A stretch of 56,005 nt of DNA from a virus. Where the stretch lies: positions 1 through 56,005 of the IMG/VR virus record IMGVR_UViG_3300012528_001039; one strand, 5' to 3'. A model generated the notes under the pieces. The model was not told the DNA's origin and made no database searches. It saw only the letters and a program-made list of their open reading frames with translations. The position numbers and the translations under genes were made by a program. Numbering within the stretch: the first letter of the stretch is position 1; each line of letters opens with the position of its first letter. This document shows, piece after piece, positions 6,268-50,025 of the stretch.

Positions 6268-7821
6268 ATGTCAGATAACATAGTTAAAAATCTAAGCTTT
6301 GGGCACGAAGCTAAAAAAGAGGTTTTTAAAGGTATAGAAAAATTAGCTAAAGCAGTTAGTTCAACTCTTGGAGCTGGAGGAAGTTGTGTTTTGCTAGAAG
6401 ATAACTTTGGAAACCCAACAATAACAAAAGACGGTGTAACAGTAGCGGAAAGTGTAGTACTTAGAAACCCAATAGAAAACTTAGGGTGCAACTTGTTAAA
6501 ACAAGCTGCAAAAAAAACAGTAAAAGAAGCGGGTGATGGTACTACAACCGCAACCGTTTTAGCTCATGCGATATTAGAAGAAGCTGATAAAATAGATTCT
6601 AGTATAAACAATAGAGAATTAAAAAAAGGTATAAACAATACTGTTGATAAAGTAATACAATATTTAGATGATATATCATTACCAGTAAAAGGTAATATGA
6701 TAAATCAAATAGCTACAATATCAACAAATAACGACAAAGAGCTAGGAAATTTAATAGGAAAAGCTTTTAATTCAGTTGAAAACACTGGTGTTGTTATGAT
6801 GGAGCAGTCTGAGTCTGGTCAAACAGAATTAGAAATTATAGAAGGTGCTCAATACTTTAAAGGTTTAACAAGTCCTCATTTTGTTACAAATAAAATTAAA
6901 AATACAGCTGAATTAAATAATCCTTTAGTTTTATTAATAGAGAATAACGTAGAAAGTATAAGACAAATACAGTCTGTTTTAGAATATGTTATTAAAAATA
7001 ATAAACCATTATTAATAATTGCAGATTTAAGTAATGAAGTTTTATCTGCTTTAGCAATGAATAAAACAAAAGGTAACATAAAAGTAAATGTAATAAACGC
7101 TCCTGTTTTAGGGGTTAATAGAAAACAAATGCTTGATGATTTAGCTTTGCTAACGGGAGCTACATTAATAAATGAAGATCTTGGAGATGACATGGATTTA
7201 ATTCAAATTGATCATCTTGGTTCTTGCTTAAAATCAATAACAAGCGAAACAGATACAATACTTCAATTTGAAAAACAAAATGAAGATTGTTTAAATATTA
7301 CAAATAAAATAAAAAAGCAACTTTTAACTTGTAAAATACCTGATAAGATAATAAGTTTAGAAAAAAGATTAGCAATGCTTTCTGCTAAAATAGCAGTTGT
7401 AAAAGTTGGTGCTAATTCTGAAATAGAGTTAAAAGAAAAAATGGATAGAGTCGAAGACGCTATCTGTGCTACAAAAGCCGCTGTCAAAGAAGGTATTGTA
7501 CCAGGCGGAGGTGTTGCTTTACTAAATGCTTCTCTTTATTTAAAAAGTAAAAATAAAGCTGAAGAAGTATTAATAAAAGCTATAACAGCCCCTTATAAAA
7601 CAATACTAAAAAATGCTGGACTAAAATTTGAAATTTTTAATAAGAAAGGTTTTGGTTTAGATGTAGTTACAGGAAGTATGGTAAATATGACTAAACAAGG
7701 AATTATTGATCCTGTCTTAGTTACTAAAAGCGCTTTAAAAAACGCGGCTTCTGTAGCAACTACTATATTATCTACTGATTGTGTAATAAATAATTTAAGA
7801 GTAGATGAAGGCGGTAGGTAG
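6268..7821 (+). CDS. groL: phage chaperonin GroEL (Hsp60)
   Basis: The 517-residue product is a recognisable group I chaperonin. It has the N-terminal KDGVTVAE segment, the ATP-binding GDGTTTAT motif, an apical domain in the middle, the RVEDAICATKAAVKEG segment carrying the catalytic Asp (equivalent to Asp398 of E. coli GroEL) and the PGGGVAL motif. It is shorter than the usual ~545 aa and ends VDEGGR, with no Gly-Gly-Met tail inside the cavity. The gene overlaps the start of groES by 17 bases, so the two are translationally coupled. It should form an ATP-driven folding ring, presumably for virion proteins. The stop is TAG, showing that TAG can end genes here. Confidence 0.95.
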   Translation: MSDNIVKNLSFGHEAKKEVFKGIEKLAKAVSSTLGAGGSCVLLEDNFGNPTITKDGVTVAESVVLRNPIENLGCNLLKQAAKKTVKEAGDGTTTATVLAHAILEEADKIDSSINNRELKKGINNTVDKVIQYLDDISLPVKGNMINQIATISTNNDKELGNLIGKAFNSVENTGVVMMEQSESGQTELEIIEGAQYFKGLTSPHFVTNKIKNTAELNNPLVLLIENNVESIRQIQSVLEYVIKNNKPLLIIADLSNEVLSALAMNKTKGNIKVNVINAPVLGVNRKQMLDDLALLTGATLINEDLGDDMDLIQIDHLGSCLKSITSETDTILQFEKQNEDCLNITNKIKKQLLTCKIPDKIISLEKRLAMLSAKIAVVKVGANSEIELKEKMDRVEDAICATKAAVKEGIVPGGGVALLNASLYLKSKNKAEEVLIKAITAPYKTILKNAGLKFEIFNKKGFGLDVVTGSMVNMTKQGIIDPVLVTKSALKNAASVATTILSTDCVINNLRVDEGGR

Positions 7822-14548: not shown

Positions 14549-14602
14549 TAACATGTAACTATTTATATATAGATTATATATAAATAATTAAATTAAATGT
14601 TA
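14549..14602. promoter_or_regulatory. long AT palindrome in the leader of the GldL-like gene
   Basis: ATTTATATATA (14561-14571) and TATATATAAAT (14575-14585) form a perfect 11-base inverted repeat with a 3-base spacer. An outer pair, TAACAT (14549-14554) and ATGTTA (14597-14602), adds a second arm that reaches the start codon. It could be an operator, a promoter region or an RNA hairpin over the start; the sequence alone does not decide. It fills the 70-base gap 14532-14601. Confidence 0.55.
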
Positions 14603-15042
14603 TGTTAAAAAATTTAAAATTAGACTTTACTAATATGCTCTACGGGCTCGGAGCTGCAGTCGTTATTTTAGGAGCTCTTGCTAAAATTCAACACTGGCCA
14701 TATGGCTCATTATTATTAACAATAGGTATGATAACAGAAGCTATTGTTTTTGCTTATTCTGCATTCGAGACAACTAAAGATACAAACGATAACTCGCGTG
14801 TAATTTATGAACCTTATGACACTAGTGAAATAGTTAAAGCTCAAAAAGAATACGCTAATAAAATACAGAAAGCTGTTGAGAATATTAATTTAATAAATAA
14901 ATCACACGCTGCTCATTTAAAACTTAGTAAGTCGTCTGTAAAAGCTTACGAAGATATAAATAAAAATTCTGTATCTTTAGCAAAAAATACATTCGATATA
15001 AATAAAATTTATCAATCAATACTAAAGGTAATTAAAAAATAA
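14602..15042 (+). CDS. GldL-like membrane protein (gliding/type IX secretion motor homologue)
   Basis: The 146-aa product opens with two membrane helices that closely match cellular GldL: YGLGAAVVILGALAKIQHWP (residues 14-33) and LLTIGMITEAIVFAYSAFE (residues 38-56). GldL and GldM form the proton-driven motor of gliding and type IX secretion in Bacteroidota. The phage copy keeps Lys28 and the helix-2 Glu46, which match residues I recall as important in cellular GldL. The cytoplasmic tail is shorter than that of cellular GldL and is a Lys/Asn-rich helix. Its stop overlaps the holin start by one base. It may act on the host motor or, given the neighbour, modulate the holin. The family match is strong; the role is open. 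Confidence 0.85.
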   Translation: MLKNLKLDFTNMLYGLGAAVVILGALAKIQHWPYGSLLLTIGMITEAIVFAYSAFETTKDTNDNSRVIYEPYDTSEIVKAQKEYANKIQKAVENINLINKSHAAHLKLSKSSVKAYEDINKNSVSLAKNTFDINKIYQSILKVIKK

Positions 15043-15506
15043 TGCCAGATAATAAAAAGAAGTTTAAAGATACAAAAGTCGGTCAGTTTTTATTAGGAAC
15101 TGCGCCTAAGCTAGTTGATGGTATATCTGATGTTTTACCAGATCAAGGCTTATTAGGTGTAGTTAAAAACTTAATAAAAAAAGAAGATCCTGTAATTTTA
15201 CCACCAGAAGATAAAGAAAAAGCTTTAAAGTTATTAGAGCAAGACATGGTAGAAATGCAAGAAATATCTAAGCGTTGGGATAGTGATATGAAATCAGATT
15301 CATGGTTGTCTAAAAACACACGCCCTATGACTCTTATATTTTTAACTATATCTTTAATAATTTTAATAGTTCTTGAAAGCTCTAATATACAGTTTGATGT
15401 TGATGGCGGTTGGGTTGATCTATTAAAATCTCTTTTAATTACAGTTTACGTGGCTTATTTTGGTTCACGAGGTGCAGAAAAATTTAAAACAATAAGTAAA
15501 AAATAA
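15042..15506 (+). CDS. holin-like membrane protein (3TM/GTA holin type)
   Basis: The 154-aa product has an N-terminal amphipathic part, then an ERW-like stretch (ISKRWDSDMKSDSWLSKNTR) leading into a membrane helix (PMTLIFLTISLIILIVLESS), a second helix (LLKSLLITVYVAYFGSRG) and a short basic end. The pattern S-D-x-W-LSKNTRPMTL ... YFGSRGAEK is typical of the 3TM holin family known from gene-transfer agents and phages. It should form the inner-membrane lesion that lets the endolysin (45968-46429) reach the wall. It is coupled to the GldL-like gene by a TAATG overlap. Confidence 0.8.
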   Translation: MPDNKKKFKDTKVGQFLLGTAPKLVDGISDVLPDQGLLGVVKNLIKKEDPVILPPEDKEKALKLLEQDMVEMQEISKRWDSDMKSDSWLSKNTRPMTLIFLTISLIILIVLESSNIQFDVDGGWVDLLKSLLITVYVAYFGSRGAEKFKTISKK

Positions 15507-36882: not shown

Positions 36883-39800
36883 ATGGAAATATATATATTA
36901 CCAAACGGCGAAGAAGTTGATTTGACTAACATGCCAGAAGAACAAAGAATAATTTTCTTATCTGAAAACCCGGATGCAAAATTAAAAAAAGTGGAGGGTG
37001 TTGCAGCAGGTGCAGATGCGATGCCTTCAAACAACCTGTTCGCACCGAATCAAGATGGGGATTTAACTTCGGAAAATTTTTCTTCGGTATCTCTAGATAA
37101 TTTTGAATATTTTAATCCACAAGGAAATGATGAGTTGTCTCAAAAAATAGGTGGAGCTATAAGTAAAACTAATCCTGAAGATTTATTAGAAGTTAATGAG
37201 TTTGGTACTTTTGAAGACCAAAACGTTCAAAGAGCTTTAGACTATGGTTTTATTTCTGAAGATGATTTAATAAAAGCTGGTTATAAGCAAGATCCTCTTG
37301 GTATATCTACATTGATTATGCCTAGTGATTATGAAAGAAAACAAGCTAGAAGTAAGATAGGTACATTTCAAACAAAAAGCCCTAATGAAATACAAGCTTA
37401 TATAGATATACAAAATTTAAATAAACCATATATATACGAAGACAAAAGTCCTAATGACGGATTTGTAGACGATGTATATGGTGATATTTATTTAGAAAAC
37501 ATGAATCAGGTGGATTTTGCTGGTTACATGAAAGAAAAAGGCTATGATGAAGATTTAAAAAGATTTTTAGAATTAGATTTAAATAAAAAATCATATGGTA
37601 ATAATTATGACCCTGAATTAGCTTATGAAAGAAAAAAATTACAATATCTAAACATGTATATAAATGATCAACTGCAGAGAGATATTAAGCAGCAGCAGTT
37701 GATGTATGAGCTAGAAACAGGTGTTGATCCAAAAGTAACAAATAAAAAGTTTAATTTATCTCCTGAAAATATAAATATATATCAATACGAAAATTATTTA
37801 AGAGAAGAATTTCCTCTTATATCTGCTAAAATGCAAGAGGTTGATGAGAGAGAACAACTTCAGTATAAACAATTATTAGATACAAATGGAAATATTGGCA
37901 CGGGTAAATTTATATTAAATGTGTTAGGTAATGGTTGGAATGGCTTTAGCAAAAGTGTAAGTGAATTAAGCGCTTCTGCTTATGGTTTATTACCTGGTGA
38001 TTATTTTGAAGGAGTATCAGAATCTATAAGAGAAGAAATAGCTTTAGAAGCTATGGGCTTTGATTTTGGTTTGACATATAATACTGGTCCTGGTAGATAT
38101 GTCTCTGGTATTGGAAAGTCTATAATTGATCAAGAAACAGGTACTAAATACTTGGTAACAGGAGATGGTAGAATATTAGACGTAGATAGAAAAATAGATG
38201 CAACAAATTTTTTATCAATAGAAAAAGGTGATGAAATAAGAGAAAAAGCAAGAAAACAAGGCGTAAAAGATAACTCGTTTAGTACGCTTGGTGCTTTTGA
38301 TGCTGGATCTCAAGTTATAGGTGATTTAATTGTTCAAATAGCACTTTCAAGAGGAATGGGTAATGGTATTAGAGCCGTTGGAGGATTTACAAAAGGTTTA
38401 GGTGTTCTAGGTAAAACAAGAAAATTTTTAAAATCTATTCCTATTAAGAGAACAATGTCTGATGCTATAATAGGTCAAGCAACTATAGGTTTCTCTAGAG
38501 GATATGAAAACACATTAGCTGAAGCTAGAAAAGCTGGATTAAATGATCAAGAAGCTAAAGAATTAGCTGCTATAGGATCTATACAAACAGGTATATTGTA
38601 TGCGATAACAGCACCAATATCACCTCAAACAAGAGCAACAGATGCTATATTTGGAAAATTAACAACTAAAAACTTTGTTTCTAACGCCATACAAGAATAT
38701 ACTAAAAAAGGTAAAAAAGGCTTTATAGATTATTTTAGAAGTGGAAAACTTGGAACGCTTATTAATTTAGGTGGCGAAGGTTTTAAAGAAATGTTTCAAG
38801 AAAACGTGCAACAAATAGGTGAAACTTTTGCTGTTAATAAAAATGTAAATGATAGAGCTGGTAGAAAAATATTAAAAGACACAATGAGTCTTCAAGACTT
38901 TATTGACACTAGTGTTTTATCTTTCTTTGCTGGAGCTGTGTTACCTGGCGCCGGTGTTACTGTTGATTTAGCAAAACAAACAGCTAGACAACTTCTTGGA
39001 ATGAGTGCTATAGATAGATTTAATGCGTTAAGTTTTTTAGCTTATAAAAAAGATTCAGTTAAAGATTTGTTAGCAACTCAAGTTTCACAAAATATTTACA
39101 CTCAACAAGAGGCTGATCAATTATTAGAAGAAATAAATGCTTTTGATAATAATATAAATAGAATGCCTCAAGATTTATCTGCTGAAGCTGCAACTCAAAT
39201 ACTAGGAGATGTAAATGAAGTAGCTAAACTAAGACAACAAAGAAAAACAGAAGATCCTTCTTTTCACTCAGAAACAGATGCTAGAATAGCAGCATTAGAT
39301 GAAAAAATAAAAACAGCTTATTATAATGACATAACAAAAAGAAAGTCAGGTATAATAAAAAAAGCTATAAAAAGTGGTAAAATAGAAAACGTCTCTTGGA
39401 ATGAATTTAATTCTACAAATGAAGTTGTAGATTTTTTAGTAAATGAATTAGGCTATACAAAAGCAAAAGCTATATCTACAGCTGGTAAATATGGAACAAC
39501 AATACAAAGAGGTGATCAGCAGTATATAGTAATAAATAACGAAAAAGCAGCTAAAGATGGTAAAGTTACAGTAAAGGAACATGAGTTTTTACATGCTGTA
39601 ATGTATGAAACAATAAGAAATAATCCACAAGCACAAGTTCTTTTAGGAAAATCTTTATTAGCAGAAGTAATGAAGATACAAGACAAACTGGATAACAACG
39701 AGTCTCTTGAAAAAGCTTTACCAGATGAATTTTTATCTGATTTTACTAGCTATATAAATTTTTATAATAATGTTATAAAAGGCTTTGATGCTGATTTAAA

Positions 39801-42800
39801 AGCTGGTACTATAACTAAACAAGAATATGATAGAAAGGTAGCTGAAGCTGTTGGTAATCAATGGGAAGAAGTTTTAACTCTTTACTCAGACGCTATCACA
39901 GTAGGCGCTGTAACATATGAAACAGATACTTTTACTAAAATAGCAGACACAATAAGACAAGTTTTGCAGTTTTTAGGATTAAAAGATATAAAATTTAACT
40001 CAGCAAAAGATGTTTATAATTTTATAAAAGACTATAACTCTAGTATAAATGCTAGAATATTAACAGCAGATAGAAACAAAGCTTTATCCAAAGTAGCTAA
40101 ACAAGGAGCAGAAGTAGATACTAAAGCTCTTGAAACTGAATCACAAAAATTTGTAGATAAAAACAAAAAACAAGCGCCTAAACAACCTGTTGTTGATAGA
40201 GAACCAACACCTGATGAAATAAAAGAAATAGAAGATAATTATACTTTTGACGAAAAGTTTGCTTTAAAAACTAAAAGACCTATATCTAGTGAAGAGTTTA
40301 AAGCTAAAGTAAATTCTTTTTATAATAAAAATTTATGGGGTAAATCTACGGGTGTAGATTCTGTTCTTTATGATATTCTAAATGAATATGAAAAACCTAT
40401 ATTAGACAAGGCTAGTGTATTATATAGTAATTTACCTGATTATAGCGCAGAAGACATGTTAGCTGAAACAGCTATTGCTTTAATACCTCACATTAGAAAC
40501 TTTAATAAAGAATTTTTACAATTAAGAGAAAACAAAAGAAAAGAGTTAAAAGAAAAAGGTTTGTCTTCTTCTGAAATTAATAATGCGTTAAATAAGCTTG
40601 ACGAAAAAGGATATAAAAATTCTAAAGGTGAAATTGTATTAGAAAACAATAATCTTAACGGCTGGATAAATAGCCAGTTAAGAAATAAAATGAAAACTGC
40701 ACTTAGAACTGGTAACGTTACTAGTCAAAAATTTACAGATGAAATAGATGAGAGATCTACATCTATAGAAACAACTAGTCAAAGTGAAATACAAGAACAA
40801 AAAGAAGAGTTTGAAAAAAATCAAGATGAATTAATAACATTATTAACTGATCCTGTTTTTGGTTTTTCAAATAAAGATGGTCAACCTATATTGATAGAAG
40901 GAGTACCAGTTGGAGGTGATTTTGCTTTAAGTGCAAACGACCCATCTATTGCTGTTAATAAAAAGCTTAAAATAGTAACTGATCCTGCAATAAGAAAACA
41001 ATTAGAACAAGAAAAAAGAGATCTTGAAAGAGGCTTAGAATTAGAAAGTAAAAAGTATTTAACAGACGAAGAAGTTAAAGAACTTAAAAAGCTAAAGTCA
41101 TTTAAAACTTATAGTGTAGCCTCCGGTGGAATGATAAAAACATATAAAGCTTATTCTCAAGAGATAAACCCAGCAGCTATAATAGCGGCAGAGGTTAGAA
41201 GAGAAATATTATCATCACCAAATATAGAAACTTTAGATTTTAGAAATTTTAAAAAGAAATTATCTATTCTTTCACAAACTCTTTCAAGAAGAATGACTTT
41301 TCAAAATAGCAAAGATTTAGATTCTTTTATGTTTAATAATTGGAAATTAATATGGGACGTTATTAACAACCCTATAGATCCAGTTACAGGTGAATCAACT
41401 TATGCAATTAAAAAAATACCACCAAGATTAAAAAACACAAATGATCAAGGTCAACCCATTAAAACTAAAGATATAAACGTAGCTACTTTCTTACAAAGTT
41501 ACTTTGGTATAGATGAAGCGACTAGGATAATCAGAACGTATAGTAAAAATCCAAATGTTTTAATAAAAAAGTTTTTACCTGTAGAATTAGGTAGAACTGG
41601 TAATAAATTATGGGCAACTGCTTACTTTGACAGAAGAACAGCTTTAATGGAGTTATTTGGTGATGTTGTTGTTCTACAAGAAGGTAGAAATTCATTGAGA
41701 AACGATGCTTTTTTAAATGAAATATCTAATAAAAATCCTAATTTATATAATGATTTAAAAAATATAAATACTAGAAATAAAGTAATAAATAATTTTGCTA
41801 CAGGTAAGTCTGATAAAATTAAATTTAGCATGAGTAATGGAACTAAAAACAATGCTAAATTAAACTCTTATTTAAGATATACAAATAATACGGCAGATCA
41901 ATTTTTTACAGCTAGAATAATGGATCAAGCCTCTAGAGAGGTTATAAAATATAAGAAAAGAACAAATAAATTTAATGTACCTGACTTAGGTAAAATGAAT
42001 GATAAAGCTATTTCTTATTATTTAATAGATAAAATATCTCAGGGTTACAATGATTTTAATTTTAAAAACGAAAACAATAGAAAAGGTAAAATAACTAAAA
42101 ACGTTTTAGACGTTTCAGATGTTAAATTTTCTATGCAAAATGAAAGAAAGCAATATAGTAATAATTTAAATACTGCTTTTAATGAGATAATAGAAGAAAA
42201 CACAGGTGTCGCAGTTGAAGAAAGTTTTTCTAAAGCTAGAGCAGAGCAAATGGCTAAAAGTATTTCTAATCAGGGAATTTATTTACCACCAGGTGATGCT
42301 GACTTTTTAGGATTAATGTATATTGTGGCTTCAGCCAGTGGTACAAAAGGTCAAAAACAAATAGATTGGGTTACTGAAAACTTAATTAAACCTTACTCAG
42401 AGGGTAGTTTAGATTTAATTAACGCTAGAAACTCAGCACATAGAGATTGGAAAAATTTATTTGATAAACCAACTAAAAAACTATTAAGAGAAGATTCTAG
42501 CTATTCTGGCTTTAGCAATGATCAAGCTATAAGAGTTTATTTGTGGAAAAAAGCAGGTTATCAAATACCTGATTTAGAAAATAAAGATATTTTTAATTTA
42601 TCTGAAGTTGTAAGAACAAATCCTAAGCTTAAAAAGATAGCAAATCAAATATCTCTTTTATCAAAACAACCTAATGGATATATAGAGCCACCACAACAAT
42701 GGATAGATGGTAGTGTATTAGGTGATGTTCAGTCAATACTAACGAAATTAAATAGAGCTAAATATCTTCAAAAATGGAAACAAAACAAAGATATTATATT

Positions 42801-44241
42801 TAATAAAGAAACAATGACTAAGCTTGAAGCTGTTTATGGTACACCTTTTGTTGATGCTTTAACGGACATACTTCATAGAATGGAGACAGGTACTAACAAA
42901 CCTAAAGGAATGAGTAAAGCTACTAGAGGCTGGGTTGATTGGTTAAATGGTTCTGTTGGTGTTACTATGTTCTTTAACATGAGATCTGCTTTGCTTCAAA
43001 CAATATCAGCTACAAACTTTATTAATATGACATTTAATAATCCTTTAGCCGCTGGTAAAGCTATATTAAATGTTCCACAAATGGCTAAAGATTTTAACAC
43101 TCTTTGGAATTCTCCTTATTTAAAAGATAGAAGATCTGGTTTGTTAAGTGATTTACAAGAATCTGAAATAGTAGATGTCTTAAATAATCCTAATAATAAA
43201 ACATGGGCACAAAAAACAAAAGGTTTAATATTTTGGGCTCTTAAAAAAGGTTTTATACCAACTAGAGCTGCAGATAGTTTAGCTATAACATTAGGTGGTG
43301 TTACATTTTATAGAAATAGAATAAATGATTTAGTTAGTAAAGGAGTAGATTTACCAGATGCAGAAAAACAAGCGATGAGAGAGTTTTACGAAACAGCTGA
43401 AGTTAGTCAACAGTCTGCGGATCCTGCTAGAATATCTAAAAATCAAGCATCAGTAGAAGGTAGATTATTTTTGTCTTTTCAAAATACTCCTCTTCAATAT
43501 TCTAGAATTATAAAAAGATCTGCAATTGACATAGCTAAAAGAAGAGGTAGTTTTGCTGGTAATGTTTCTAAAATAGTTTATTATGCTGCTGTTCAAAACT
43601 TCATATTTAATTTTTTACAAAACGCATTATTTAGAATGTGGGACGATGATGATGATCAACAAGTAGATTATACGCAGAGTAAAACTAGAGCCGCAAACGG
43701 TATGTTAGATACATTAATAAGAGGAGCTGGTTTATATGGTGCTTATATTGCCGCTATAAAAAATGTAGGTTTAAAAGCTTATGAACTAAGCCAAGATCCT
43801 AGAAAAGGTAGAGGTAAAGAATATCAAGTAGTTTTAGAAGCTTTAAATGTTTCACCTTCAATAGGTATTAAAGCTAGAAAAATAGCAAAAGCTTGGCAAT
43901 CTTATAGTTATAATTCAGAATATTTTGATTATTACGGTTGGAATCCTTTTAAAAATAAATATGCGCTTGAAGCTTTAACTACTATGACTTCTGCTACTTT
44001 AAATATACCTCTTGATAGGTTGATGATAAAAGCAGAGAATGCAATGTCTGTTTTAGATAGTCAATATGAAACTTGGCAAAGAATGGCGTTTTTCTTTGGC
44101 TTTAGTAAATGGAATTTAGACTTAGACGAAGATCAAAACCAAAACAATAACACTCCTAACAATCCTTTTGGTATTGATTTTGGAGGTGAAATAGAAGATA
44201 TAGATCTAGATGTAGATTTAGATTTGGATATAAATTTATAA
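36883..44241 (+). CDS. giant internal/ejected virion protein (2452 aa), gp16-like, polyvalent
   Basis: The largest gene here. In order: an N-terminal acidic region; an Ala/Gly-rich section near residues 470-700; an HExxH motif in VKEHEFLHAVMYETI (HEFLH at residues 900-904); a helical section with YSAEDMLAETAIALIPHIRN (about 1185) and NNLNGWINSQLRNKMKTALR (about 1257) that loosely recalls sigma-70 region 2; two KFSM motifs (about 1647 and 1748); and a conserved C-terminal block (WLNGSVGVTMFFNMRSALLQ, FIPTRAADSLAITLGGVTF, VSQQSADPARISKNQASVEG, RLFLSFQNTPLQYSR). It ends in Asp/Leu repeats. This fits an ejected, multi-domain T7 gp16 counterpart; the C-terminal block recurs in large proteins of related marine phages. 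Confidence 0.7.
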   Translation: MEIYILPNGEEVDLTNMPEEQRIIFLSENPDAKLKKVEGVAAGADAMPSNNLFAPNQDGDLTSENFSSVSLDNFEYFNPQGNDELSQKIGGAISKTNPEDLLEVNEFGTFEDQNVQRALDYGFISEDDLIKAGYKQDPLGISTLIMPSDYERKQARSKIGTFQTKSPNEIQAYIDIQNLNKPYIYEDKSPNDGFVDDVYGDIYLENMNQVDFAGYMKEKGYDEDLKRFLELDLNKKSYGNNYDPELAYERKKLQYLNMYINDQLQRDIKQQQLMYELETGVDPKVTNKKFNLSPENINIYQYENYLREEFPLISAKMQEVDEREQLQYKQLLDTNGNIGTGKFILNVLGNGWNGFSKSVSELSASAYGLLPGDYFEGVSESIREEIALEAMGFDFGLTYNTGPGRYVSGIGKSIIDQETGTKYLVTGDGRILDVDRKIDATNFLSIEKGDEIREKARKQGVKDNSFSTLGAFDAGSQVIGDLIVQIALSRGMGNGIRAVGGFTKGLGVLGKTRKFLKSIPIKRTMSDAIIGQATIGFSRGYENTLAEARKAGLNDQEAKELAAIGSIQTGILYAITAPISPQTRATDAIFGKLTTKNFVSNAIQEYTKKGKKGFIDYFRSGKLGTLINLGGEGFKEMFQENVQQIGETFAVNKNVNDRAGRKILKDTMSLQDFIDTSVLSFFAGAVLPGAGVTVDLAKQTARQLLGMSAIDRFNALSFLAYKKDSVKDLLATQVSQNIYTQQEADQLLEEINAFDNNINRMPQDLSAEAATQILGDVNEVAKLRQQRKTEDPSFHSETDARIAALDEKIKTAYYNDITKRKSGIIKKAIKSGKIENVSWNEFNSTNEVVDFLVNELGYTKAKAISTAGKYGTTIQRGDQQYIVINNEKAAKDGKVTVKEHEFLHAVMYETIRNNPQAQVLLGKSLLAEVMKIQDKLDNNESLEKALPDEFLSDFTSYINFYNNVIKGFDADLKAGTITKQEYDRKVAEAVGNQWEEVLTLYSDAITVGAVTYETDTFTKIADTIRQVLQFLGLKDIKFNSAKDVYNFIKDYNSSINARILTADRNKALSKVAKQGAEVDTKALETESQKFVDKNKKQAPKQPVVDREPTPDEIKEIEDNYTFDEKFALKTKRPISSEEFKAKVNSFYNKNLWGKSTGVDSVLYDILNEYEKPILDKASVLYSNLPDYSAEDMLAETAIALIPHIRNFNKEFLQLRENKRKELKEKGLSSSEINNALNKLDEKGYKNSKGEIVLENNNLNGWINSQLRNKMKTALRTGNVTSQKFTDEIDERSTSIETTSQSEIQEQKEEFEKNQDELITLLTDPVFGFSNKDGQPILIEGVPVGGDFALSANDPSIAVNKKLKIVTDPAIRKQLEQEKRDLERGLELESKKYLTDEEVKELKKLKSFKTYSVASGGMIKTYKAYSQEINPAAIIAAEVRREILSSPNIETLDFRNFKKKLSILSQTLSRRMTFQNSKDLDSFMFNNWKLIWDVINNPIDPVTGESTYAIKKIPPRLKNTNDQGQPIKTKDINVATFLQSYFGIDEATRIIRTYSKNPNVLIKKFLPVELGRTGNKLWATAYFDRRTALMELFGDVVVLQEGRNSLRNDAFLNEISNKNPNLYNDLKNINTRNKVINNFATGKSDKIKFSMSNGTKNNAKLNSYLRYTNNTADQFFTARIMDQASREVIKYKKRTNKFNVPDLGKMNDKAISYYLIDKISQGYNDFNFKNENNRKGKITKNVLDVSDVKFSMQNERKQYSNNLNTAFNEIIEENTGVAVEESFSKARAEQMAKSISNQGIYLPPGDADFLGLMYIVASASGTKGQKQIDWVTENLIKPYSEGSLDLINARNSAHRDWKNLFDKPTKKLLREDSSYSGFSNDQAIRVYLWKKAGYQIPDLENKDIFNLSEVVRTNPKLKKIANQISLLSKQPNGYIEPPQQWIDGSVLGDVQSILTKLNRAKYLQKWKQNKDIIFNKETMTKLEAVYGTPFVDALTDILHRMETGTNKPKGMSKATRGWVDWLNGSVGVTMFFNMRSALLQTISATNFINMTFNNPLAAGKAILNVPQMAKDFNTLWNSPYLKDRRSGLLSDLQESEIVDVLNNPNNKTWAQKTKGLIFWALKKGFIPTRAADSLAITLGGVTFYRNRINDLVSKGVDLPDAEKQAMREFYETAEVSQQSADPARISKNQASVEGRLFLSFQNTPLQYSRIIKRSAIDIAKRRGSFAGNVSKIVYYAAVQNFIFNFLQNALFRMWDDDDDQQVDYTQSKTRAANGMLDTLIRGAGLYGAYIAAIKNVGLKAYELSQDPRKGRGKEYQVVLEALNVSPSIGIKARKIAKAWQSYSYNSEYFDYYGWNPFKNKYALEALTTMTSATLNIPLDRLMIKAENAMSVLDSQYETWQRMAFFFGFSKWNLDLDEDQNQNNNTPNNPFGIDFGGEIEDIDLDVDLDLDINL

Positions 44242-44247
44242 AAAAAA

Positions 44248-44556
44248 ATGACAAAAATACCACAAATAGGCGAAGATACTAAATTTACATTAGATGTTAA
44301 AACAATAGGTATAATTATAAGTTTTGTTGTAGGATTATCTACAACTTATTTCACTTTAAAATCTGATATAGCTTTAGCTATGGAAGAACCAAAGCCAGAA
44401 ATAACTTCATTAGAATTTAAATACAAAGACGAATTGATTAGATCGAACGTGGAAAAAGTTATTGAACAAGTTGATAACATTGAAAAAGACGTTGAGGAAA
44501 TAAAACAAATGATAGATAAGTTAGATCAGCGTCTTTATGAAATACAAAGAAGATGA
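44248..44556 (+). CDS. membrane-anchored coiled-coil protein (102 aa)
   Basis: One membrane helix (IGIIISFVVGLSTTYFTLKS) near the N-terminus is followed by a coiled coil (NVEKVIEQVDNIEKDVEEIK, QMIDKLDQRLYEIQRR). This plan recalls XhlA-type lysis accessory proteins or i-spanins. Its stop overlaps the next gene by 4 bases (ATGA), so it opens a coupled cassette ending with the M15 endolysin. A lysis role is inferred. Confidence 0.65.
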   Translation: MTKIPQIGEDTKFTLDVKTIGIIISFVVGLSTTYFTLKSDIALAMEEPKPEITSLEFKYKDELIRSNVEKVIEQVDNIEKDVEEIKQMIDKLDQRLYEIQRR

Positions 44557-44885
44557 GATTAATTATTGCATTACTATTTAGCACTTTTGCATTTGGACAA
44601 AACTATAAAGACGATATTAGTATTGTTCAATACAGCGCAAAATTTTTATTAGAAAAAGAAATATCATTAAAAAAATTAAAAAGCTTTAACACTCATACAT
44701 TTTATATGAGTGAACATAAAGAATATTTTACTAAAGAAAATATAGAATATTTGCCAACTATTTGCGTATATAATAATGGCGAAGAAGTTTTAAGAATACA
44801 CGGTGGTATGTCTTTAAAATTACCAGATGATACATTAAAAAAAGTTATTAACAAAGTAGATGAACTACAATCAAACAAGTTTTAA
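44553..44885 (+). CDS. secreted thioredoxin-like protein lacking CxxC (110 aa)
   Basis: A short signal peptide (MRLIIALLFSTFAFGQ) is followed by a domain with thioredoxin order: a strand/helix start (DISIVQYSAKFLLEKEISLK), then a later strand with the cis-Pro-like EYLPTICVYNNGEEVLRIHG. No CxxC redox motif is present where the first helix begins, so it is unlikely to be a disulfide oxidoreductase. It should act in the periplasm. It sits between the membrane coiled-coil gene and the outer-membrane barrel gene. It might bind a periplasmic partner. Confidence 0.6.
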   Translation: MRLIIALLFSTFAFGQNYKDDISIVQYSAKFLLEKEISLKKLKSFNTHTFYMSEHKEYFTKENIEYLPTICVYNNGEEVLRIHGGMSLKLPDDTLKKVINKVDELQSNKF

Positions 44886-45965
44886 ATGAAAAAATTATTG
44901 TTATTATTTTTACTGATTAGTTTTACTAGTCAAGCTCAATTTAAAAAAATATTTAAATATAGTACTGTTTATGCTAGCTATGATCAAAACAACTCTATAC
45001 AACCAATGCAATCATTTGCTGTTAGTGCTAGCAATGATTTAATAGAAACAACACCTAACACACCCGCTGATCAAACGTTAACAATTGGTATTAGAAAATT
45101 AGCTTTTTTTGACTATGAAAACAGAGATCAGTTTTACAACGGAAGTGAAACTAATATAGGTAAATCTGCTAATATAGGTAACGCTAAAGGTTTAGAGTAT
45201 TTATTTGAATATTCAAAAGGTAGACAGCAAAGATCTGAGTTTGAAAACAGTCAAATGTTTGTTAGATACTTAGCTAATTACTGGGTTGCTAAAGTAGAAA
45301 GAACAAAAAATGAATTAGTTGATTTAGATTACAAGTTAGCAGATCTTAGATTAAGATTACCTATTGGTAAAAAAATAAGTTTAAGTATTGGTGCTGCATA
45401 TAGAACATATGAAAAAGCTTATGGTGTAAATCCTATAGAATCATATCTTGAAGATAACTATTGGTGGAATTTAAGTAGAGATTACTATGGACATAATGAT
45501 GTACCTTACTCTTGGGAAAACTTTTCTACAGGTGAAACAGGTATAGATTATTTTTGGTATGATCAAAATGGAGTTTTAATTTCTAACTCTGATTTAGATT
45601 ATAGAGAAAATATATTCGGTGATCTTGTTAATCAATATAACTCAGAGCAATTAGAATTAGTGTCTGGTGGTTATGCTAATTTATCCGGTGTAATCGGTTT
45701 AGATTTTTATCATTATAGAAAAAGTCATTGGATACACGCTTATGGTAATATACTTCCTATACATAAAACTTATGCAGATGAAGGTAAAGAACATTGTTCA
45801 TATGAGGCTTTTATAGGTAATAATAAATGGATTGATTATTCTTTTGGTGGACAATTTGGAATAAACATAAACAAAAAGTTTGGTTTGTTTAGCGAAATAG
45901 CTATACAAAAATATTGGGATAGAAAAATAAAAGTAATTAAAGCTGGCATTAACTTTAAATTATAA
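44886..45965 (+). CDS. outer-membrane beta-barrel protein with signal peptide (359 aa)
   Basis: A clear signal peptide (MKKLLLLFLLISFTSQAQ) leads into a protein with many alternating aromatic/polar strands (SIQPMQSFAVSASNDLIETT, NIGNAKGLEYLFEYSKGRQQ, DYKLADLRLRLPIGKKISLS, NYWWNLSRDYYGHNDVPYS). The end (KIKVIKAGINFKL) is a typical C-terminal barrel strand. No enzymatic motif. It is the only recognisable phage-encoded outer-membrane barrel in the window, placed one gene before the endolysin. Roles in lysis of the outer membrane or in blocking superinfection are both plausible. Confidence 0.7.
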   Translation: MKKLLLLFLLISFTSQAQFKKIFKYSTVYASYDQNNSIQPMQSFAVSASNDLIETTPNTPADQTLTIGIRKLAFFDYENRDQFYNGSETNIGKSANIGNAKGLEYLFEYSKGRQQRSEFENSQMFVRYLANYWVAKVERTKNELVDLDYKLADLRLRLPIGKKISLSIGAAYRTYEKAYGVNPIESYLEDNYWWNLSRDYYGHNDVPYSWENFSTGETGIDYFWYDQNGVLISNSDLDYRENIFGDLVNQYNSEQLELVSGGYANLSGVIGLDFYHYRKSHWIHAYGNILPIHKTYADEGKEHCSYEAFIGNNKWIDYSFGGQFGININKKFGLFSEIAIQKYWDRKIKVIKAGINFKL

Positions 45966-45967
45966 TT

Positions 45968-46429
45968 ATGCAAAAGATAAGTGATCATATAACGTATGCT
46001 GAAGCTATACACTCAAATACAGCTAAGCGTAAAGGAATAGATAATACACCTAGCCCAGTTCACGTAGAAACCATGGGTTTAACAGCGTCTAAAATATTTG
46101 AACCACTTAGAGAATGGGTTGGAGGACCAATAAAAGTAAATTCATTTTTTAGATCAGCAGAACTAAATACTGCAATAGGAGGATCAAAAACATCTCAGCA
46201 CTGTAAAGGCCAAGCAATAGACTTAGACGACGTCTATGGACATAAAACCAATGCAGAAATGTATCATTGGATAAAAGAAAACTTAAATTTTGATCAATTA
46301 ATATGGGAGTTTGGCACAGACACAAATCCAAATTGGATACATGTATCTTATGTTAATGATGAAGATAATAGAAATAGATGCTTAAAAGCATATAAAGAAA
46401 ACGGTAGAACTAAATATAAAGTAATATAA
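45968..46429 (+). CDS. M15 family peptidase, probable endolysin (153 aa)
   Basis: The product has the M15 zinc-peptidase plan: INSFFRS-like strand (KVNSFFRSAELNTAIGG), the SQHCKGQAIDLD segment (His and Asp zinc ligands), an acidic helix (AEMYHWIKENLNFDQLIWEF) and the WIHVSYV strand with the third zinc His. M15 D-Ala-D-Ala peptidases cut peptide cross-links in peptidoglycan and are common phage endolysins. No signal peptide is seen, so it needs the holin at 15042-15506. It starts two bases after the barrel gene. Confidence 0.9.
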   Translation: MQKISDHITYAEAIHSNTAKRKGIDNTPSPVHVETMGLTASKIFEPLREWVGGPIKVNSFFRSAELNTAIGGSKTSQHCKGQAIDLDDVYGHKTNAEMYHWIKENLNFDQLIWEFGTDTNPNWIHVSYVNDEDNRNRCLKAYKENGRTKYKVI

Positions 46430-46677: not shown

Positions 46678-48396
46678 CTAACCATCACACGCAAGACAAT
46701 CTTCACTCATCGCTTGCTGCGCAATATCTCCACGTAAAACACTTTCTGTTCTAGTATAATACAAAGTTTTAATACCATTTTTCCAAGCTTGCATATGTAC
46801 TTGATTAATCCATTTAGGCGTAGCAACGCTAGGAAAAGCTAGATTTAAACTAACAGATTGATCTATATATTGCTGACGTATACCAGCTTGATTAACTAAT
46901 TCTAATTGATTAATCTCTTTAAAAGTTTTAAATACCTCTTTTGCTGGTATGTCATGCGCCATGATAACATCATCAAGCTCAGAAAGATTTTGAACACTAC
47001 CACCGTCAGCAAGTATTTTATCCCATGTTTCATTATTATTTATTTTAAGTTTTCTTAATAATTTTACTAGCGTAGGGTTTTTACGTATAAAAGTTCCTTT
47101 AGCAGATTGTTCAGTAAATACATTTGCAGCCCATGGTTCTATTCCTGGTGAAACATTGCCACTAAGCTTTGAATTACTAACAGTGGGAGCAATAGCACGC
47201 AAATGAGTATTACGATAACCAGTACCAGCACACCACAAAGGTTCGCCATAAGTTTCAGCAAGAACTCTAGAAGCTCTTTCGCTTTCAATTTTAATTTGCG
47301 AAAATATTTTCCTAGTTTCAAACTGAGCAAGGAGACCTTCAAAAGGTAAGCCGTTTTCTTGGAGATAGGTGTGCCATCCAAGTACACCCAACCCAAGTGC
47401 TCGTCCTTTTGTAGCGGAGCGAACGGCATTTTCAAAACCTCTAAGTCCTTTGGCTCTTTGAATAAATTCCTCCATAACGCCATCAAGAAACCAAGTGGCG
47501 TCGTATATAAGATTTGTACCTTTCCATTCTTCATATTTAGCTAAATTTAATGATGATAAACAACAAACAAAACTATGATTTTCATCAGTATGCAGTGTTA
47601 TTTCTGAGCAAATATTTGTCATATGAACTTTTAGTCCATTATCTTTATAAGCTCTAGGGTTATTTTTATTTGTATTTCCTTTAAATAATATATACGGTTC
47701 ACCGGTTGCTTTACGCTTTTGTAATAACTTACCCCATTTTTTTCTAGCCTGTTTATCTCCTTGTTCTATTTTTCTCATAAACTTATCACCTATTACAACG
47801 CATTGGTGTAAGTTAAGAGATTGTCTATTAACATCTCCTTTTGGTTCTCTAATTTCTAACCACTCTTCGAAGTCGCTATGCTCAATATTAATATTAACTG
47901 ATGCAGCTCCTCTTCTAACAGATCCTTGATTAGTTGCGAGTATTGTTGAATCATATATTTTACAAAACGGTACAACTCCGTCGCTTGTTCCATTACCAGT
48001 AATTTTAGCGCCTGAAGGTCTAATCATATTAATACCAATGCCAACACCACCACCGTGTTTAGCTAATAACATCATTTCTAAATTTTTATGACCTATATCT
48101 TGAATACTATCTGCTACATCAATACCAAAACAGCTAATAGGAAGACCGCGATCAGTACCAGTGTTACTAAGAACAGGAGACGCCAAACAAAGCCATCCGT
48201 TCCATATATATTCAAAGAATTTTTCTGCCATTTCTGGCTTGTATAACCTTCTCGCAACCGTTTTTGATACTCTTTCATATGCTTGCTTAGGAGATTCTCC
48301 AGCAAGTAAATATCCTCCTGAGATTGTTTTTTTATAGACTTCTGTATCTCCCCATTTTGGGTAGTCTTCGCCTTTTTTCCATTCATTATTCCACAT
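46678..48396 (-). CDS. nrdA: ribonucleotide reductase class I large subunit
   Basis: The 572-aa product has the NrdA landmarks: SCFGIDV (first active-site Cys), LAKHGGGVGIGINMIRPSGA, NICSEITLHTDENHSFVCC (N-x-C-x-E and the partner Cys), the VLGWHTYLQ region and a C-terminal CLACDG (CxxC tail that is re-reduced by thioredoxin-type donors). There is no N-terminal ATP cone, so activity is not ATP/dATP gated in the usual way. It reduces ribonucleotides for phage DNA synthesis with NrdB. The stop is TAG. It is the last gene of the - strand operon. Confidence 0.95.
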   Translation of the reverse strand: MWNNEWKKGEDYPKWGDTEVYKKTISGGYLLAGESPKQAYERVSKTVARRLYKPEMAEKFFEYIWNGWLCLASPVLSNTGTDRGLPISCFGIDVADSIQDIGHKNLEMMLLAKHGGGVGIGINMIRPSGAKITGNGTSDGVVPFCKIYDSTILATNQGSVRRGAASVNINIEHSDFEEWLEIREPKGDVNRQSLNLHQCVVIGDKFMRKIEQGDKQARKKWGKLLQKRKATGEPYILFKGNTNKNNPRAYKDNGLKVHMTNICSEITLHTDENHSFVCCLSSLNLAKYEEWKGTNLIYDATWFLDGVMEEFIQRAKGLRGFENAVRSATKGRALGLGVLGWHTYLQENGLPFEGLLAQFETRKIFSQIKIESERASRVLAETYGEPLWCAGTGYRNTHLRAIAPTVSNSKLSGNVSPGIEPWAANVFTEQSAKGTFIRKNPTLVKLLRKLKINNNETWDKILADGGSVQNLSELDDVIMAHDIPAKEVFKTFKEINQLELVNQAGIRQQYIDQSVSLNLAFPSVATPKWINQVHMQAWKNGIKTLYYTRTESVLRGDIAQQAMSEDCLACDG

Positions 48397-48397
48397 A

Positions 48398-48562
48398 TTA
48401 CTTAGTTAAGTGTGTTATCCATGCTATTAGTCCATTCATATTTAAAGCGACAAGATTCCATTGTTTTCTTGAAGCTGTTTGTATCATTACACATATAAAA
48501 CCTATTATATATAATTTAGGTTCTATAGTCCACTGTGCTGCGATTAAAAAACCAGCACCCAT
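48398..48562 (-). CDS. small two-helix membrane protein (54 aa)
   Basis: The start was set at MGAGFLIAAQW (48562), ten bases after the upstream stop. Longer in-frame starts (to 48661) would overlap that gene by about 90 bases. The product has two hydrophobic segments (AGFLIAAQWTIEPKLYIIGF, ICVMIQTAS) then RKQWNLVALNMNGLIAWIT. The QWNLVALNMNG pattern looks like a small membrane protein conserved in phages of this kind. It lies directly upstream of nrdA. Confidence 0.6.
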   Translation of the reverse strand: MGAGFLIAAQWTIEPKLYIIGFICVMIQTASRKQWNLVALNMNGLIAWITHLTK

Positions 48563-48572
48563 ATAACCTATT

Positions 48573-48803
48573 CTAGTCGCTAGTCGCTTCCAAGGACTTA
48601 GCCTTTTCTGTCTTACTAGACTTTTCAGTAATTTTATTTTTAATTTGCTCCAACGCTTCATTGTATCCTGGCATTAATTTTAGTGTTTCTAAGGTACCTA
48701 TTGCTAAGTCTCTTATATTACTTAATTCATTTAATAAATGCTGCATTATTCTATTTTGAGCATCTATTTTATTTTTCATTTCTATTAATTTACTTTCTTT
48801 CAT
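48573..48803 (-). CDS. small helical phage protein (76 aa)
   Basis: Helical and charged (LIEMKNKIDAQNRIMQHLLN, ELSNIRDLAIGTLETLKLMP), then GYNEALEQIKNKITEK and a polar tail. Unrecognised, but the GTLETLKLMPGYNEA block looks conserved rather than random. Its start overlaps the upstream gene by 14 bases. It ends in TAG. Confidence 0.65.
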   Translation of the reverse strand: MKESKLIEMKNKIDAQNRIMQHLLNELSNIRDLAIGTLETLKLMPGYNEALEQIKNKITEKSSKTEKAKSLEATSD

Positions 48804-48978
48804 TTTTATAATCTATTATAAAACCTATAAAAACAATTATATTCATAGTTAAACTACAAATCAATTCATATAAGTCTTTAAAATTATGTATAGATAAATG
48901 TATATGTCCTACAACCCAAAAGGGTATTGCTAGATTTTGACTTATCCAGATTACCGTATATTTTAAAAAATTTTTCAT
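48790..48978 (-). CDS. small membrane protein (62 aa)
   Basis: Two hydrophobic stretches (YTVIWISQNLAIPFWVVGHI and LICSLTMNIIVFIGFIIDY) with a basic end. Unrecognised; the linker HLSIHNFKDLYE is polar. Overlaps both neighbours by a few bases, so it is part of the coupled run between nrdB and nrdA. Confidence 0.6.
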   Translation of the reverse strand: MKNFLKYTVIWISQNLAIPFWVVGHIHLSIHNFKDLYELICSLTMNIIVFIGFIIDYKNERK

Positions 48979-49088
48979 TTGTATAGATCTTTGTTTATAT
49001 CATCTTGTGTTATATCTATATTAAGGTTTATACCTTTTTCATAGACTTTACACCAATTACCAAATATCTTCAAAGTCTTCGCCCTCAT
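48975..49088 (-). CDS. possible 37-aa peptide between nrdB and the membrane protein
   Basis: MRAKTLKIFGNWCKVYEKGI continues to NLNIDITQDDINKDLYK. It overlaps the nrdB end by 32 bases and fills the otherwise empty 78-base gap. The gap is too wide for this tightly packed operon and the C-terminal half looks like a real sequence, but the evidence is thin. Confidence 0.35.
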   Translation of the reverse strand: MRAKTLKIFGNWCKVYEKGINLNIDITQDDINKDLYK

Positions 49089-50025
49089 TAGCCTTACTAT
49101 AGTCTGTTGGACGAATAGCGAAAAAATCAGTATGGGTAACGCCCCCGGTAAGATGATAAAACCAATCAAGCTCAGCCGCTGCTTTAGTGTCATATTCGAA
49201 CTTATCTTTAAGTTCTGTATAACCGAGTTCCATAAGTTTTTCATTTGTTCTTTTTCTTATAAATTGTTTTAAGTCGTAAGATTTAATACCTTCTATATCA
49301 CCCATCTCAAACATTTTATCAATGTACTTTTCTTCAAGATCAACCATTATTTCAGCAGCTTTTATAACATCTGGTTTACAAGCGGACAATAGTTTATTAT
49401 CCTCTTCACACATATGCCTAAATAATCTGCAACCCATTTTACTGTGTAATGATTCGTCTCTTACAGACCATTTCATTTGTTGCCCAATACCTTTGAGTAA
49501 ATTTCGTAACTGAAAACTATACAGCACTGCAAAAGCACTATACAGACTAACTCCTTCAGCGAAGGCTGAAAATACAGCCAAGCTTTTCGCAACACCCACA
49601 GATTCAGTCCCGTTGTAAGCAACAAGATTGTCAAAGCGATTAGCCGTTGCTTCTTCATGTAAGAAAGCTTCATAATCTTCTAATTTTAATGTTTCATTTA
49701 AATAACTATAAGCAACAGCGTGTATTGTTTCTTGCGATCCAAACATCATTGCCATTTGCTGTATTTCGTGTTTAGGAAACCAGCTAACTACTTTTTGGGT
49801 CCAGTAATCAGAAACCGCGCACTCCGTCTGCGCGAAACCGAGTAGTATATTACCGACCAAGTTCTTTTCTTTATCATTTAATTTTTCGTTCCAATCTTTT
49901 ACATCTCCACTCATGGGTATTTCAGTATGTAACCAAAATGCTTGAGCTTGTTTTAACCAACCTTCTGTATAATACTCAGGATATTCAAACGGTTTGTACG
50001 CTATGCGCTCATCAAATAATCCAAT
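49057..50025 (-). CDS. nrdB: ribonucleotide reductase class I small subunit, with ATT start
   Basis: The ATG-based frame starts at 49914 (MSGDVKDWN), but it is open upstream for 37 more codons that read GLFDERIAYKPFEYPEYYTE then GWLKQAQAFWLHTEIP, a standard NrdB N-terminus. No ATG, GTG or TTG occurs there. The codon at the expected start is ATT (50025-50023), inside a TAATT that overlaps the upstream stop exactly where TAATG junctions lie elsewhere here. The 322-aa product keeps the diiron ligands (TECAVSDYW, GSQETIHAVAYSYL, SAFAEGVSLYSAF, RDESLHSKMG). It carries the tyrosyl radical for NrdA. Either initiation is at ATT, or the base is a mutation or error. Confidence 0.88.
   Translation of the reverse strand: MGLFDERIAYKPFEYPEYYTEGWLKQAQAFWLHTEIPMSGDVKDWNEKLNDKEKNLVGNILLGFAQTECAVSDYWTQKVVSWFPKHEIQQMAMMFGSQETIHAVAYSYLNETLKLEDYEAFLHEEATANRFDNLVAYNGTESVGVAKSLAVFSAFAEGVSLYSAFAVLYSFQLRNLLKGIGQQMKWSVRDESLHSKMGCRLFRHMCEEDNKLLSACKPDVIKAAEIMVDLEEKYIDKMFEMGDIEGIKSYDLKQFIRKRTNEKLMELGYTELKDKFEYDTKAAAELDWFYHLTGGVTHTDFFAIRPTDYSKANEGEDFEDIW

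Follow-up and report, generated by a model that had tools for sequence, protein, structure and literature searches.

A predicted outer-membrane barrel gene precedes the endolysin gene

The DNA analyzed here, which we refer to as the window, is an entire 56,005-base IMG/VR virus record; it encodes a terminase of phrog_6681 and a portal protein of phrog_6547, and the virus is a marine bacterial virus. On the plus strand, positions 44886–45965 encode a protein of 359 amino acids, with an ATG start, that we designate OMB. Its start codon abuts the stop codon of the upstream gene, TRX (spacing 0 bp), and 2 bp after its end a Peptidase_M15_3 endolysin gene begins (45968–46429, plus strand; E 1e-16; phrog_894), in agreement with the original prediction, which had placed an outer-membrane barrel beside the endolysin.

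That prediction had deduced the barrel from a signal peptide and many strands, and had called for structure prediction. At its N-terminus, MKKLLLLFLLISFTSQAQ, OMB has a Sec signal peptide (about residues 1–17) that follows the Bacteroidota 'Q-rule', and a glutamine lies at a plausible cleavage site in 175 of 182 OMB relatives; here and below, signal peptides and lipoproteins were called with a home-made pattern scan, not with SignalP. An AlphaFold2 model computed with six sequences (pLDDT 53) was set aside, and we used the model obtained with a 39-sequence alignment (mean pLDDT 78, pTM 0.71), which predicts a barrel of 12 strands at residues 27–35, 62–71, 102–114, 117–129, 133–142, 147–160, 164–175, 263–277, 281–297, 317–327, 332–343 and 346–358. 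In 11 of the 12, the mean hydropathy of the two faces differs by more than 1 unit, and the last strand ends in INFKL, with phenylalanine at position –3 and no terminal phenylalanine. When the model was compared with solved structures using Foldseek, outer-membrane barrels were matched, including NanC, FapF and OmpG (best E 9e-7; 123 matches at E ≤ 1e-3); because the TM-scores are low (about 0.2–0.5), these matches support the barrel class for OMB and not a specific family. Together, the Sec signal peptide and the even number of amphipathic strands that close a barrel confirm, at the level of prediction, that OMB is an outer-membrane beta-barrel.

OMB matched no family in Pfam, PHROGs, NCBIfam or PADLOC, and in the first three of these no porin, Ail/Lom or PorP/PorV model was matched. 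An assignment of OMB as PorP/PorV of the type IX secretion system (T9SS) was dropped for want of a family match, and an assignment as a virion protein was dropped in view of the signal peptide and the lack of a structural-family match.

OMB belongs to an obligate three-gene module

Two genes that the original prediction had not mentioned lie directly upstream of OMB. TMCC (44248–44556, plus strand) encodes a predicted inner-membrane protein of 102 amino acids, with one N-terminal transmembrane helix, a conserved EFxYKDELxR motif after this helix, and then a coiled coil. Since lysine and arginine are more numerous before the helix than after it in 119 of 166 homologues, and less numerous in six, an N-in/C-out orientation is favoured, as judged from this positive-inside count only. 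Among the PADLOC models of anti-phage defence, TMCC gave only a weak coiled-coil match (E 0.002), and no defence system was matched.

TRX (44553–44885, plus strand), whose first four bases are shared with the end of TMCC, encodes a predicted secreted protein of 110 amino acids with a thioredoxin fold. It shares with thioredoxins the fold profile, which matched them among known structures at E 3e-7, and the cis-proline (P68), but it lacks the CXXC active site and has both a signal peptide, with an invariant Q16 at the Q-rule cleavage site, and an invariant C-terminal phenylalanine. The three CXXC matches among 171 TRX hits consist of two ordinary thioredoxins and one match within a signal peptide; with no CXXC, TRX was rejected as a working, catalytic thioredoxin.

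Both partners were present at all 97 OMB loci flanked by 3.5 kb or more in both directions, that is, at 46 of 46 loci of the window's clade (window-type) and 51 of 51 loci of a second clade. To guard against circularity, IMG/VR was also searched separately with each of the two small proteins: TMCC and OMB were found at 47 of 47 TRX-seeded loci, and the TMCC-seeded loci contained TRX in 56 of 56 cases and OMB in 55 of 56. The trio lies on one strand in 136 of 136 cases. The order TMCC–TRX–OMB, as in the window, is that of most of the window clade, and OMB–TMCC–TRX is that of most of the second clade and of a small sub-group of the first. We regard the three genes as an obligate module, with OMB as its third component; the module is robust, and the function that we infer for it below is well motivated.

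One 60-kb record, L380, contains TMCC and TRX without a recognizable OMB, and in it another outer-membrane partner may substitute for OMB. At this locus (L380:5001–6475), TMCC and TRX are directly followed by genes for an Amidase_2 endolysin and a 3-TM holin. An exported YfiM/DUF2279-like protein may be a fourth component of the module; its gene often lies after TRX, or between TRX and OMB (a 42-member cluster, including L112:8013–8375 and L004:5703–6074, the latter an open reading frame that overlaps its neighbours). A single 53-kb record (G014, with L194–L196) has two module copies and two M15 genes, which reflects either a duplication or a joined record.

Distribution of the OMB family

A tblastn search with four diverse OMBs, one TRX and one TMCC yielded no match among 50,697 deposited phages. 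In IMG/VR, the number of confirmed OMB relatives rose from 95 to 385 and then to at least 509 as the query was broadened, and the records that carry them reach 158 kb among the matches listed. The original remark that phage barrels are rare holds for reference genomes, where lambda Lom is known, but not for IMG/VR, where the OMB family alone exceeds 500 members. Like OMB, Lom is a barrel encoded by a phage, and the Lc/NmpC-type porins are likewise phage-encoded outer-membrane proteins; unlike OMB, these proteins come from temperate phages and are not known to have obligate inner-membrane and periplasmic partners.

The OMB reading frame is not a chance one, since 27 columns are invariant in an alignment of 178 sequences, in which identity between the two clades is about 34%. 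An unnamed viral protein in BFVD, A0A516LKJ4, aligns with OMB at 30% identity (Foldseek E 2e-27) and is a homologous barrel, with no name or function in the tables searched. A single scan of GTDB genomes with OMB returned one match, L081 (PBPJ01000031.1), on a contig binned as a Woesearchaeota MAG. Because its gene order is the same as that of the viral loci L004 and L068, we read this as probably a mis-binned Bacteroidota phage contig that carries the module; from this one scan, the family looks viral rather than host-derived. It also spans different phage types, since L004 has a phrog_10 major head protein, as opposed to the phrog_6547 portal of the window type.

Lysis genes near the module and the search for a spanin

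The module is flanked in the window by the M15 endolysin gene and, directly upstream, by a giant gene (36883–44241, plus strand; 2452 amino acids), the last of the presumed virion block. The giant protein has no PHROG match and contains a metallopeptidase-like stretch (HEFLH). The endolysin gene is immediately followed, on the minus strand, by genes for the large and small subunits of ribonucleotide reductase (46678–49914), as recognized by sequence reading, and a GroEL-like chaperonin gene is found at 6268–7821 (phrog_5725, E 3e-130). The product of the holin gene (15042–15506, plus strand; phrog_3427, E 1.3e-17) resembles the 3-TM holins that relatives encode next to the module, and the gene is adjoined by one for a small hydrophobic protein (14602–15042). 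As a separate holin is present, TMCC was rejected as a holin candidate.

A holin or endolysin gene lies within 5 kb of the module at 39 of 46 window-type and 28 of 51 second-clade loci, the remaining 23 second-clade loci having no recognized lysis gene within this distance. The endolysins near the module are non-homologous: M15 in the window, a phrog_33083-type protein in L112, Amidase_2 in L380 and, in L143, a DUF2272 protein that is a probable endolysin.

Tailed phages that lyse Gram-negative hosts generally require one protein per envelope layer (PMC9239132), and published spanin complexes consist of an N-in/C-out coiled-coil inner-membrane protein that is joined to the outer membrane (PMC6139136). 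In a 2025 survey of lytic proteins, Bacteroidetes phages were reported with unimolecular spanins exclusively (PMC12596118), and spanin annotations are few in North Sea flavophages (PMC8776804). As no spanin was detected in 91 of 677 phages (PMC6139136), an apparent spanin gap need not be filled.

The original prediction had found no classical spanin pair obvious, and our scan of the window concurs: it revealed neither a credible small outer-membrane lipoprotein with a lipobox cysteine, as in two-component spanins, nor a credible unimolecular spanin with a lipobox and a C-terminal transmembrane helix. The scan gave only two antisense open reading frames, of 48 and 56 amino acids; unfiltered, it recovers the controls lambda Rz1 and T7 18.7. 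The Sec-exported proteins found in the window and 18 other window-type records comprise TRX, OMB, often the YfiM-like protein and almost nothing else, and G024 is the only one of these records with credible small lipoproteins, which it encodes in addition to the trio. Aside from the small hydrophobic protein at 14602–15042, the proteins that the window phage clearly directs at the envelope are the holin, the endolysin and the trio.

TMCC has the features that define the inner-membrane subunit of a two-component spanin, its topology being taken from the positive-inside count; because no lipoprotein was found, the module is by definition neither a two-component nor a unimolecular spanin. Like lambda Rz/Rz1 and T7 gp18.5/18.7, it combines an inner-membrane protein that has a predicted periplasmic coiled coil with an outer-membrane partner; the topology of TMCC is i-spanin-like, and, as with Rz/Rz1, the genes lie by that of the endolysin. 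It differs from the two-component spanins in that the outer-membrane partner is an integral barrel of 359 residues rather than a small lipoprotein, and in that a third protein, of thioredoxin fold, is obligatory; no sequence relation was seen. Unimolecular spanins (T1 gp11 and the Bacteroidetes type; PMC12596118), each a single lipoprotein with a C-terminal transmembrane helix, would do the same job, the latter type in the same host phylum. No description of the module was found in the open-licence literature.

The same anatomy and the same neighbourhood would also suit a device that stabilizes the envelope or times lysis, with the trio stapling the envelope until the holin triggers and thus being antiholin-like, not destructive. 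This would leave the outer-membrane step of lysis unexplained, and we consider it very unlikely.

Conservation is highest at the predicted periplasmic end of the barrel

The 27 invariant columns include eleven OMB residues shared by 178 of 178 sequences: R70, E104, R127, K136, E138, R155, R173, D273, H284, D317 and E337. By strand parity, the invariant charged residues face the lumen, and they cluster mostly at the periplasmic end of the barrel, an assignment that takes both termini as periplasmic. Eleven invariant lumen-facing residues resemble a functional lumen, and the top fold match of OMB is the NanC porin, as might be expected if OMB were a channel, or an outer-membrane enzyme such as a lipid A or phospholipid hydrolase, controlled by TRX and TMCC. 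LpxR and OMPLA are two known 12-stranded outer-membrane enzymes; neither, however, is among the 50 best Foldseek matches, the OMB sequence profile matched no solved structure at E ≤ 1, and polar networks can seal barrels without catalysis. A channel or enzyme is, in our estimation, unlikely.

Loop T1 (residues 72–101; 45099–45188, plus strand), a predicted periplasmic loop with the motif YExRxxFYxGxE, is the best-conserved long non-strand segment of OMB, with 2.97 bits versus 2.48–2.53 bits in the outer loops, which in the 178-sequence alignment are also less conserved than the strands. Yet T1 is poorly modelled (pLDDT <50, the lowest confidence in the OMB model), as expected if the segment folds on a partner, and we propose that it may be a partner-binding or plug segment. 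Given the conservation of the periplasmic end and of T1, we read OMB as a putative anchor that would tie a complex including TRX and the coiled coil of TMCC to the outer membrane; such a complex would do by mechanical means the work of an i-spanin and an o-spanin together. The same pattern weakens the idea, raised in the original prediction, that the barrel masks the receptor.

A T9SS-sorted protein accompanies the module in the second clade

Some room for a function at the cell surface is left by the second clade, in which a T9SS-secreted protein invariably accompanies the trio. The trio might remodel the surface or exclude superinfection, building or displaying a surface item that blocks other phages or the sticking of progeny to debris, and in the second clade the item displayed would be the T9SS cargo. 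A signal-peptide protein of the T9SS-sorting-domain family is indeed present at 51 of 51 second-clade loci, PF18962 (T9SS type A sorting domain) scored over cut-off in 17 of 20 second-clade records, and the AlphaFold2 model of OMB predicts an exposed large outer loop (residues 176–262). However, the cargo domain was over cut-off in 0 of 31 window-type records, the outer loops of OMB are less conserved than either T1 or the strands, the module genes adjoin virion and lysis genes, and masking would not need an inner-membrane coiled-coil partner. A surface role, such as exclusion or release from debris, appears doubtful overall but is a serious competitor to lysis in the second clade, given also the 23 loci there with no recognized lysis gene nearby. 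The second-clade phages appear to export their cargo via the host T9SS. These cargo proteins are large and secreted, typically of 600–1100 amino acids, with repeats and a C-terminal type A sorting domain (L112:3099–5999, L187:9117–11408 and relatives).

A proposed role of the module in lysis

The reading that we favour, at a probability of roughly 0.45, is that the trio forms an inner-to-outer-membrane complex, the most likely task of which is the outer-membrane step of lysis. It is based on the barrel prediction, the three-gene linkage, the position in the operon, the presence of a holin and an endolysin, the failure to find a spanin, and the conservation of the periplasmic end of the barrel; against it, neither OMB nor TRX is similar to any lysis protein that is known, 23 of 51 second-clade loci have no recognized lysis gene within 5 kb, L380 contains TMCC and TRX without a recognizable OMB, and G024 has credible small lipoproteins along with the trio. 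The original suggestion that the barrel provides this step in place of a spanin thus gains strong indirect support from an obligate trio contiguous with the endolysin gene, a holin and the lack of a lipoprotein in the window, while the role itself, along with a physical complex, late expression and direct disruption of the outer membrane, is what we infer from these data.

According to the lysis model, the trio would probably be made late in infection. TMCC would be held in the inner membrane with its coiled coil reaching into the periplasm, and the CXXC-less TRX would form a bridge between TMCC and OMB. OMB would hold the outer membrane and dock via its conserved periplasmic mouth and loop T1. 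Once the holin (15042) had made an opening in the inner membrane and the peptidoglycan had been cut by the M15 endolysin (45968), the tethered complex, now freed, would pull the membranes together, fuse them or tear them, an outcome that spanins reach in a different way. More broadly, and tentatively, the module may be a new envelope-disrupting machine of Bacteroidota phages that replaces spanins in hundreds of marine phages of different types and that one lineage couples to a T9SS-exported phage protein.

How phages breach the outer membrane of Bacteroidota, which are major bacteria of the ocean and the gut, is poorly known, and since neither the reference families nor the deposited phage genomes contain the module, much of such biology is unsampled. 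If the proposed role is correct, this would be, to our knowledge, the first lysis complex built on an integral barrel and not on a lipoprotein. With a trio that is conserved in hundreds of marine phages and adjoins several unrelated endolysins, the question can be tested using few genes.
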